A model generated the notes under the pieces. That model worked only from the letters and a program-made list of their open reading frames with translations. It had not been told where the DNA came from and searched no databases. A stretch of DNA of 64,000 bases. Source: Empedobacter falsenii. Its GTDB lineage: Bacteria; Bacteroidota; Bacteroidia; Flavobacteriales; Weeksellaceae. This document shows, one piece after another, positions 36,700 through 38,697 of the stretch; position 1 is the first letter of the stretch, and the number at the start of each line of letters is the position of its first letter. The stretch is taken from contig NZ_JAAGKM010000011.1 of NCBI RefSeq assembly GCF_019308355.1, positions 1-64,000 on the forward strand, in the 5' to 3' direction. Both the position numbers and the translations under genes were made by a program.

Positions 36700-37191
36700 T
36701 TATGAATCAAATTGTGTAATATCTTCAAATTTAGCCTCAATCAAATTTCTTAAATCTTCGGGGTTTAGAATAATTTGTAAACCTCTTTTTCCTGCACTAA
36801 TACAAATCTGATCTTGCAAAACAGCCAGTTCTTCTATGTAAGTAGGAAATTGCTTTTTCATTCCGATAGGTGAGCAACCACCACGAATATAACCTGTAAC
36901 ATTCAGCAAATCTTTCAAAGGAAGCATTTCGCAGTTTTTATTACCAGAAATTTTCGCAAATTTTTTCATATCAAGATGTGTGTTTGCAGGAATTACGGCA
37001 ACTAAAAATGGTTCTATATTTCCTTTCAAAACCAAAGTTTTATAAATTCCTTCCGGATTTACGTTCAATGAATTTGCAACATGCAAAGCATCAATATGTT
37101 CTTCATCAACTTCATATTCGCGCAATTCGTACGAAATATTGTGTGTGTCTAAAATTCGTACTACATTTGTTTTAGCAGTTTTATTGCTCAT
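36700..37191 (-). CDS. ybaK: Cys-tRNA(Pro) deacylase YbaK
   Basis: A 163-residue YbaK/ProX-family trans-editing enzyme that hydrolyses Cys mischarged on tRNA(Pro). Conserved features include IYKTLVLKG, VAVIPANTHLDMKKFAK and GYIRGGCSPIGMKK, which match YbaK. It ends next to the redoxin-like gene and is divergent from the tyrS leader region. Confidence 0.92.
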   Translation of the reverse strand: MSNKTAKTNVVRILDTHNISYELREYEVDEEHIDALHVANSLNVNPEGIYKTLVLKGNIEPFLVAVIPANTHLDMKKFAKISGNKNCEMLPLKDLLNVTGYIRGGCSPIGMKKQFPTYIEELAVLQDQICISAGKRGLQIILNPEDLRNLIEAKFEDITQFDS

Positions 37192-37303: not shown

Positions 37304-37311
37304 TACCTTTG
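37304..37311 (+). promoter_or_regulatory. -7 promoter element of the tyrS leader
   Basis: TACCTTTG matches TAnnTTTG. Its last base lies only eight bases before the ATG of the leader ORF at 37320, so transcription would start within about 1-4 bases of that ATG. A TTG at 37271-37273 is farther than the usual -33 spacing. Confidence 0.5.
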
Positions 37312-37319
37312 CATTATAA

Positions 37320-37415
37320 ATGAAGTTTTTGCAACACATATTACGTTTACCGTTTTTTAGCACTTATTATCGTACAATATTTGCTCGGGTAGACTATGTG
37401 TATACTTCGTATTAA
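37320..37415 (+). CDS. Tyrosine-rich leader peptide of tyrS
   Basis: A 31-codon ORF with Tyr codons at 16, 17, 26, 28 and 31 (all TAT), the last directly before the TAA stop. An in-frame stop (TAA at 37317) precedes the ATG, so this is the only start. It sits between a -7 element and an intrinsic terminator, in front of the tyrosyl-tRNA synthetase gene. This is the form of a leader peptide for ribosome-mediated attenuation: ribosomes slow at Tyr codons when charged tRNA(Tyr) is scarce. The peptide itself (basic, hydrophobic) probably has no other function. Confidence 0.75.
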   Translation: MKFLQHILRLPFFSTYYRTIFARVDYVYTSY

Positions 37416-37478
37416 TTTTGTACGTCAAAAATTTAATCATAATCTACAAGCCCGAGCAGTTTTGCTCGGGCTTTTTTT
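37382..37478 (+). promoter_or_regulatory. Terminator/antiterminator switch of the tyrS attenuator
   Basis: The 5' arm of the terminator contains CCCGAGCA (37451-37458). It can pair either with TGCTCGGG (37463-37470) in the terminator or with an identical TGCTCGGG at 37382-37389 inside the leader ORF (codons 21-24), extended by TAGA with TCTA across a bulge. The leader copy lies 12-24 bases beyond the Tyr16-Tyr17 codons, so a ribosome stalled there would leave it free to form the antiterminator. Confidence 0.7.
37449..37478 (+). terminator. Attenuator terminator before tyrS
   Basis: AGCCCGAGCA, loop GTTT, TGCTCGGGCT: a perfect 10-bp GC-rich stem followed by seven T. It ends 17 bases before the tyrS ATG, where a terminator makes sense only as an attenuator. 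Confidence 0.9.
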
Positions 37479-37494
37479 ATTTAAAAAAAAAATC

Positions 37495-38697
37495 ATGGAA
37501 AATTTAAAAAGTTTAAAGGAAAATGTAGCTATTTTTTTACCAGAAAATGGATTGGAAGAAAAATTAAAATTAGCTGAAAAAGAAAATCGACCATTACGAA
37601 TCAAATTAGGTTTTGATCCTACCGCACCAGATTTACATCTTGGTCACGCCGTTGTATTGAAGAAATTGAAAGAATTTCAAGATTTGGGACATCAAATAGT
37701 TATTTTGGTTGGGAGTTTTACAGCTCAGATTGGAGATCCAACAGGAAAAAATAAAAGTCGTCAACCGCTGAATGCAGAACAAGTTCAGAACAATGCGGAA
37801 ACCTACATTAATCAATTGTCAAAAATTATTGATGTGAATAAGGCTGAAATTGTGTTTAATTCAGACTGGTTAGATCATTTACCTTTTTCGGATATTATTC
37901 AGTTGTTGTCAAAAGTTACGGTTGCACAACTGATGCATCGAAATGATTTTAATAAACGCTTCACCGAAAATACGCCGATTGCAATGCATGAGTTGGTTTA
38001 CCCGATTTTACAAGCATACGATTCTGTTCAGATAAGTGCTGATATCGAAATGGGAGGAACGGATCAATTATTTAATTGTACAATGGGACGACAATTGCAA
38101 GAAACCAATGGAGAAGCTGCTCAGATTGTAATGTGTATGCCACTTTTGAGAGGAACCGATGGAAAAGAAAAGATGAGTAAATCGTTGAATAATATTATTG
38201 GTTTGACGGATGAACCAAATGAAATGTTTGGGAAAACAATGTCTATTCCAGATGATTTATTAGAAGAATATATTGCGTTAGCAACGGATTTTTCTATTGA
38301 AGAAAAAATGAATTTGAATGAGCGATTAAAAACAGATAATCCAATGTTAATTAAGAAATTAGTTGCAAAAAATATTATTATTCAATACCATTCTGTAAAT
38401 GAAGCTGAACAAGCAGAAGAATTTTTTAACAATCAATTTCAGAAAAGAAATGATGAAAATAGAGTTTTCGAAGTTGTTAAAATTAGTTCTTTAAACTTTG
38501 AGAATGATAATATTACATTGTTAGATGTTTGTCATCAATTAAAGAAAGATTTATCGAGAAATGCAATCAGACGTTTGATAGAAAGCGGTGCAGTACAAAT
38601 TAATGGAGAGAAAAAAATGGATGCTTTTGATGATTTTGAATTAAAAACCGAAACTAAAATTAAAATAGGAAAACGAGATTTCTTCGAGTTGAAGTAA
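37495..38697 (+). CDS. tyrS: Tyrosyl-tRNA synthetase
   Basis: A 400-residue class I synthetase that charges tRNA(Tyr). HIGH-type motif HLGH (48-51), KMSKS (226-230), and a C-terminal S4-like RNA-binding domain (about 335-400; IRRLIESGAVQINGEKK). The overall motif spacing is of the TyrZ-like type. The frame is open upstream to 37396, but that runs through the attenuator hairpin, so the ATG at 37495 is chosen. Expression is probably controlled by the leader region just upstream. Confidence 0.97.
   Translation: MENLKSLKENVAIFLPENGLEEKLKLAEKENRPLRIKLGFDPTAPDLHLGHAVVLKKLKEFQDLGHQIVILVGSFTAQIGDPTGKNKSRQPLNAEQVQNNAETYINQLSKIIDVNKAEIVFNSDWLDHLPFSDIIQLLSKVTVAQLMHRNDFNKRFTENTPIAMHELVYPILQAYDSVQISADIEMGGTDQLFNCTMGRQLQETNGEAAQIVMCMPLLRGTDGKEKMSKSLNNIIGLTDEPNEMFGKTMSIPDDLLEEYIALATDFSIEEKMNLNERLKTDNPMLIKKLVAKNIIIQYHSVNEAEQAEEFFNNQFQKRNDENRVFEVVKISSLNFENDNITLLDVCHQLKKDLSRNAIRRLIESGAVQINGEKKMDAFDDFELKTETKIKIGKRDFFELK

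Follow-up and report, generated by a model that had tools for sequence, protein, structure and literature searches.

The accessory tyrosyl-tRNA synthetase (TyrRS) gene of Empedobacter falsenii is very probably controlled by a ribosome-mediated attenuator, which would induce this auxiliary enzyme when charged tRNA-Tyr is in short supply. The argument is a comparative one. Alignment with related leaders supports the leader open reading frame (ORF), its Tyr codons, their spacing and three alternative RNA helices, and the leader is absent from the housekeeping tyrS that this genome also carries. From these features we infer a response to tyrosine. The parts of a classical attenuator are all present, namely tandem cognate codons in an ORF that shows the marks of translation, an intrinsic terminator, an arm located past the stall site and a competing 1:2 helix. 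In addition, the controlled gene specifies a second enzyme of the same specificity, as judged by family assignment, alongside the housekeeping gene, which is what defines an auxiliary synthetase.

Results

Organization of the leader

The window is a 64,000-nucleotide stretch of E. falsenii DNA, whose nearest relatives are Empedobacter tilapiae, stercoris, brevis and sedimenti. All parts of the proposed attenuator lie on the forward strand. A match to the Bacteroidota -7 promoter box TAnnTTTG (TACCTTTG, 37304-37311) is followed after a predicted 5' untranslated region of about 4 nt by an ORF of 31 codons plus stop (37320-37415), encoding MKFLQHILRLPFFSTYYRTIFARVDYVYTSY, with Tyr at codons 16, 17, 26, 28 and 31. 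Strand 1 of the 1:2 hairpin (ACACATA and GTTTACC, 37334-37351) spans codons 5-11 and is paired in the minimum free energy (MFE) fold. The putative regulatory codons Tyr16-Tyr17 (TAT TAT) occupy 37365-37370. Strand 2 contains the candidate antiterminator arm TGCTCGGG (37382-37389), which is identical to the terminator 3' arm and has 37451-37458 as its partner, and also the segment GGTAGACTATGTGT (37388-37401), which is the partner of strand 1 in the MFE fold and by co-evolution of the pairing. Strand 3 is the terminator 5' arm AAGCCCGAGCA (37448-37458), whose pairing is conserved with compensatory changes, and strand 4 comprises the 3' arm TGCTCGGGCTT with the T tract at 37472-37478 (37463-37478 in all). 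The terminator stem (37448-37473) has 11 pairs including a closing A-U, a loop of 4 and then seven T residues that end at 37478. The first-pass annotation of this DNA had recognized the box, the ORF with its five Tyr codons and the 8-base repeat of the terminator arm, all of which were recovered as described; it had also placed the terminator with its seven T residues 17 bases before tyrS, a distance that is in fact 16 bases, a trivial correction. The whole leader, about 160 nt long and consisting chiefly of the ORF and the terminator, folds with an MFE of -43.7 kcal/mol, compared with -25.2 +/- 3.4 for shuffled sequences (z -5.4).

Downstream is the accessory TyrRS gene (37495-38697, 400 aa), with matches to TIGR00234, PF00579 and PF01479, the HLGH motif at residue 48, KMSKS at 226 and an S4 domain. 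Upstream, on the opposite strand, is the gene for an aminoacyl-tRNA editing-domain protein (36700-37191, minus strand, PF04073) and because of this divergent arrangement the terminator serves no upstream gene. In genera other than Empedobacter the PF04073 gene is not found beside the accessory TyrRS gene, and one genome of the genus Empedobacter (G413) has neither the accessory TyrRS nor a relative of the neighboring editing-domain gene.

A model for attenuation

In the proposed mechanism, transcription would begin about 4 nt upstream of the leader ATG and the ORF would be translated as the transcript is made. With enough charged tRNA-Tyr the ribosome would clear the Tyr codons, the 1:2 helix would form, and strand 3 would be left free to pair with strand 4, so that transcription would terminate before tyrS. 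With charged tRNA-Tyr scarce, the ribosome would halt when Tyr16 or Tyr17 occupies the A site; it would then cover the 1:2 hairpin on its loop side and end a few nt short of TGCTCGGG. The freed TGCTCGGG would then pair with strand 3, blocking the terminator and allowing RNA polymerase to enter tyrS. The geometry of the leader is compatible with this scheme. From what is generally known of toeprints, the front of a ribosome holding either codon in its A site lies at about nt 58-61 of the ORF, and the arm begins just beyond, at nt 63.

Conservation of the tandem Tyr codons

A leader is present 5' of all 80 related loci, in the genera Empedobacter, Chishuiella, Weeksella, Vaginella, Chryseobacterium, Flavobacterium, Arenibacter, Gelidibacter, Winogradskyella, Sphingobacterium and Rufibacter. 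A survey of the family found it at 75 of 75 matches; the peptide pattern was recognized in 71 of the 72 regions fetched, the exception being G439, and three further genomes were already known to be positive. In a survey of the Flavobacterium group all five matches carry a leader, four with the peptide pattern, while the fifth (locus L207 of G970, 1327-1425), MKILNNILHLTFFSTYYY (MKILNNILHLTFFSTYYYRIVSVRKDYVYMSK), has diverged and carries R9H and P11T but keeps its Tyr codons and terminator. A phylum-wide search with covariance model R1 and an exact pattern returned few matches, because the accessory TyrRS gene is itself rare. The other R1 matches examined in the window genome were ordinary terminators with no similar leader.

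Of 121 distinct leaders, 120 have Tyr-Tyr at codons 16 and 17. The sole exception, L148 in G439, reads Tyr-Leu as the result of a 1-nt deletion, with arm and terminator remaining, and is a natural test case for sensing through a single codon. Past codon 17 there are from 0 to 4 Tyr codons, which are not conserved, and 18 of the 121 leaders have none. Tyr26, Tyr28 and Tyr31 of the window therefore lie outside the conserved design, in which only Tyr16-17 matter. The first-pass annotation had proposed attenuation by stalling at Tyr16-17, and comparison bears this out, with the tandem codons, the arm, the terminator and the spacing all kept; a hairpin retained after loss of the ORF or of its Tyr codons, which that annotation had named as evidence to the contrary, is not what the relatives show.

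The leader peptide and the transcript start

The peptide ahead of the Tyr codons, MKxLNxILRLPFFSx, is conserved and strongly selected at the amino-acid level. Among 76 leaders with equal spacing, pN/pS is 0.089 at codons 2-15 and rises to 0.71 at codons 18-21 and to 0.77 past the arm. The value remains 0.08 for codons 2-4 and 12-15, which lie outside the strand of the 1:2 helix, and it is 0.052 at codons 2, 4, 8, 12 and 13 in a diverse set. This selection on amino acids implies that the leader ORF is translated and that selection maintains the chain preceding the Tyr codons as a protein sequence; translation in vivo is thus predicted from the pattern of substitutions.

Simple sensing of Tyr codons leaves the conservation of residues 2-15 unexplained. 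It is possible, although we would hold to it only tentatively, that MKxLNxILRLPFFSx acts from within the exit tunnel to set or strengthen the stall at the Tyr codons, or to sense a ligand. Such assistance from the nascent peptide would be an elaboration of the attenuation model and not its opposite. It would account for the low pN/pS at codons 2-15, inside and outside the 1:2 strand and in the diverse set, and for the jump to 0.71 right past the Tyr pair; moreover, the conserved part is the entire nascent chain of a ribosome stalled at Tyr16-17. However, codons 5-11 owe some of their conservation to the pairing of strand 1 as RNA, no likeness to known arrest peptides, such as those of the TnaC or ErmCL type, emerged, and the R9H and P11T changes are tolerated by L207 of the Flavobacterium group.

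Of the 121 distinct leaders, 72 have TAnnTTTG 4-9 nt before their ATG and one more has it at 15 nt, whereas among control ATGs in the same loci it is found at 4-12 nt in 93 of 6566 (1.4%). Relaxed forms of the box are visible in many of the remaining leaders. In Flavobacterium johnsoniae the box is located at -12 to -5 (PMC6847099), and this placement predicts that transcription starts at about 37316 in the window. The leader ORF is accordingly predicted to begin some 0-5 nt from the 5' end. Such a nearly leaderless arrangement would be unusual for the group, since 87% of F. johnsoniae transcripts have leaders of more than 10 nt (PMC6847099), and in Flavobacterium psychrophilum leaderless mRNAs amount to 5.5% (PMC9723704).

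Three alternative helices

The arm, G(C/T)TCGG, starts 12-16 nt past codon 17 wherever it is found (114 of 121 leaders). By reading frame, these 114 arms divide into groups of 75, 38 and 1; in the remaining 7 leaders the pattern was not found. The codons of the arm show almost no synonymous change (0.027). Since the spacing does not depend on the frame, selection acts on the arm as RNA, holding it at a set physical distance, and does not act on the amino acids that it encodes.

The 3:4 terminator is paired in 98.5% of alignment cells, with compensatory changes at 5 pairs, and the 2:3 helix, formed between the antiterminator arm and the terminator 5' arm, in 89.5%, so that the antiterminator postulated in the first-pass annotation is conserved. 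At arm base 2, a varying position whose partner in the 5' arm also pairs with the 3' arm, the combinations of arm, 5' arm and 3' arm bases are T-A-T in 82 leaders, C-G-C in 22 and C-G-T in 13, and all 117 of 117 can pair. On the TyrRS tree the two sides of the 2:3 pair change together three times, with no mismatched row; the covariation of 2:3 and 3:4 thus derives from a few events, of which one lies on well-supported branches.

The 1:2 helix, which the first-pass annotation missed while listing the arm, terminator and ORF correctly, was found by folding and pairs 37334-37351 with 37388-37401. For 91 distinct pairs, strands 1 and 2 fold with their own partners at -12.96 kcal/mol, compared with -10.74 +/- 0.23 when partners are exchanged, and none of 5000 permutations was as good. 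When partners were exchanged within one arm type the value was -11.11 +/- 0.21, and again none of 5000 was as good. By this comparison of leader sequences the 1:2 helix co-evolves and completes the switch.

Folding in the presence of a ribosome

To model the decision, the portion of the RNA covered by a ribosome at a chosen codon was masked and helix probabilities were calculated for 118 leaders. With the ribosome at Tyr16 or Tyr17, the mean probability of the antiterminator is 0.99 and it exceeds 0.5 in 118 of 118 leaders; the mean is 0.42 with no ribosome and 0.30 with the ribosome at the stop codon. Before strand 3 has been made, the 1:2 helix forms with a mean probability of 0.74, and of 1.0 in the window. 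For the window transcript ending in strand 3, however, the equilibrium probability of the antiterminator is 0.96 with no ribosome and 1.0 with a ribosome at the stop codon. As the antiterminator wins here even in the absence of a ribosome, the window can reach its OFF state only through the order in which the helices form or through displacement by strand 4. Either the equilibrium model falls short at this point or Empedobacter genuinely differs. In full-length RNA the terminator, which is more stable than the antiterminator, forms almost always, as expected if the decision is taken during transcription.

The last result raises the question of whether a constitutive terminator merely lowers tyrS transcription, with the ORF incidental to it. 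The terminator is indeed the strongest single feature of the leader and it prevails in the full-length folds, but conservation and co-variation extend to the ORF, the Tyr codons, the frame-independent spacing, the arm and the 1:2 helix, a pattern that makes this simpler reading very unlikely. We consider it similarly improbable that the leader reports general translation stress or the presence of a ribosome-targeting drug in place of charged tRNA-Tyr. From the geometry, a halt anywhere from about codon 10 to codon 17 would free the arm, and upstream ORFs that act as sensors of this kind are known, that of TopAI-YjhQ being one (PMC12121999); yet the codons that are strictly kept are Tyr-Tyr and the gene controlled encodes a TyrRS.

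The controlled gene is an accessory TyrRS

The window genome contains two TyrRS genes. The second (G000:C33:115191-116483, minus strand; L002:1405-2700) matches the same NCBIfam model and encodes an enzyme of the E. coli TyrS type. Its plain promoter and short 5' region contain no leader ORF, terminator or attenuator. An E. coli-type TyrS is present in exactly one copy in all 80 genomes searched, 52 with the window-type gene and 28 without it. The window-type enzyme carries HLGH and KMSKS in 80 of 81 relatives. It occurs in 75 of 246 genomes and 5 of 33 genera of the family, in 5 of 121 genomes of a genus with Flavobacterium leaders (the genus name being deduced), and in 1 of 395 genomes of an even class-wide sample. 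The gene under control, which the first-pass annotation had called tyrS, is thus a second, patchily distributed accessory TyrRS gene and not the housekeeping tyrS.

In the TyrRS tree Vaginella groups with Sphingobacterium (95% support), Chryseobacterium tagetis stands apart from the other Chryseobacterium, and Arenibacter and Gelidibacter are split. No gene family next to tyrS recurs when genera are compared, and with no neighbor common to different genera an explanation in terms of an operon or gene cluster was ruled out. Patchiness, tree and neighbors fit a horizontal movement of the accessory gene together with its leader, of which the tree by itself is no proof. Searches of plasmids returned distant TyrRS only, with about 50% identity at best, and the leader peptide had no match in plasmids or phages. 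At 27 distant TyrRS loci of the same type from other classes of the phylum (L104-L130, mostly 43-47% identity) there was no comparable Tyr-rich leader, and no terminator by the same scan that detected one 5' of 77 of 80 relatives. One accessory copy (G584:C2:78413-79594) has a single in-frame TAA, with an intact housekeeping TyrS alongside, and is perhaps decaying.

Most of the class manages with the housekeeping TyrS, so a need for the accessory enzyme probably arises only as charged tRNA-Tyr declines, which might happen when tyrosine runs out, when a compound inhibits the usual TyrRS or when D-Tyr is misused. Under other conditions the accessory TyrRS would be silenced by the attenuator, whose physiological trigger would be either tyrosine starvation or a housekeeping enzyme that fails, is poisoned or misuses D-Tyr. 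Taken one step further, leader and gene might constitute a mobile unit of control plus enzyme, in which a near-leaderless peptide combines codon sensing with control by the nascent chain and switches on a back-up TyrRS; the conserved chain would either render the ribosome unusually sensitive at the Tyr-Tyr codons that follow it or sense a ligand, a proposal that we regard as speculative.

Discussion

Classical attenuators have been described for trp and his (PMC1183508). Those of trp, his, leu and pheA (Rfam Leu_leader and Phe_leader) resemble the present leader in having an ORF with tandem codons, the 1:2, 2:3 and 3:4 pairings and a terminator before the gene. They differ in that here the gene encodes an aminoacyl-tRNA synthetase, the codons are for Tyr and the organisms are Bacteroidota; in addition, the leader peptide is conserved ahead of these codons, and its ORF begins almost at the predicted start of the transcript. 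Rfam has no family for this leader, and its leader families (Leu_leader, Phe_leader and others) gave no match at the gathering score.

Attenuation of an aminoacyl-tRNA synthetase gene has a precedent in E. coli pheST with its leader peptide PheM, although in that case the codons are for Phe, the synthetase is the housekeeping one and the organism belongs to the Gammaproteobacteria. Ribosome-mediated attenuation also controls TrpRS1 of Streptomyces, which is likewise an auxiliary synthetase beside a housekeeping one and is induced by way of a leader peptide of its own. That system concerns Trp and Actinobacteria, and TrpRS1 is indolmycin-resistant (PMC9437257), whereas for the present TyrRS neither a drug nor a resistance is known. 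Alike in function and in the logic of control are Bacillus subtilis tyrZ, a second TyrRS under T box antitermination (PMC9437257), and the tyrS of the Enterococcus durans tyramine cluster, where a T box directs tRNA- or tyrosine-responsive antitermination (PMC3315439); in these cases sensing is done by a T-box RNA, to which uncharged tRNA binds, and here it would be done by a translating ribosome. Despite this likeness, the chance that the present leader is itself a T box or another ligand riboswitch is slight enough to neglect, as no Rfam family reaches the gathering score in the window, no T box is found in the leader at E values up to 10, the sub-threshold Rfam matches are weak look-alikes of terminators, and the leader is short and made up chiefly of ORF and terminator.

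In the same phylum, structures and transcript maps of F. psychrophilum have led to proposals of leader-peptide attenuation in its amino-acid biosynthesis operons, along with structured 5'UTRs on aminoacyl-tRNA synthetase genes (PMC9723704); the text consulted names no tyrS leader. The Bacteroid-trp motif RF01692, listed as a candidate cis-regulatory RNA (PMC2864571), is from this phylum as well but again belongs to amino-acid biosynthesis operons. Our literature search found no paper on this tyrS leader, although the survey of attenuation of aminoacyl-tRNA operons by Lopatovskaya et al. (2010) might mention it. The tyrS attenuator thus seems to be undescribed, as the first-pass annotation had supposed, but attenuation as such is not wholly new to Flavobacteriia.

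If the model is correct, tyrosine and an auxiliary TyrRS join the list of ribosome-mediated attenuators, and the Bacteroidota, whose mRNAs lack Shine-Dalgarno sequences, would gain a well-defined attenuator with known strands. A spare synthetase would be joined to its own sensor of starvation, as it is by T boxes in Bacillus, and this similar pairing suggests that the same logic has been reached by a different mechanism. Conservation of the peptide before the stall codons is unexpected for a pure codon sensor. Finally, the distribution of the gene suggests that the bacteria that carry it meet something that disables their usual TyrRS.
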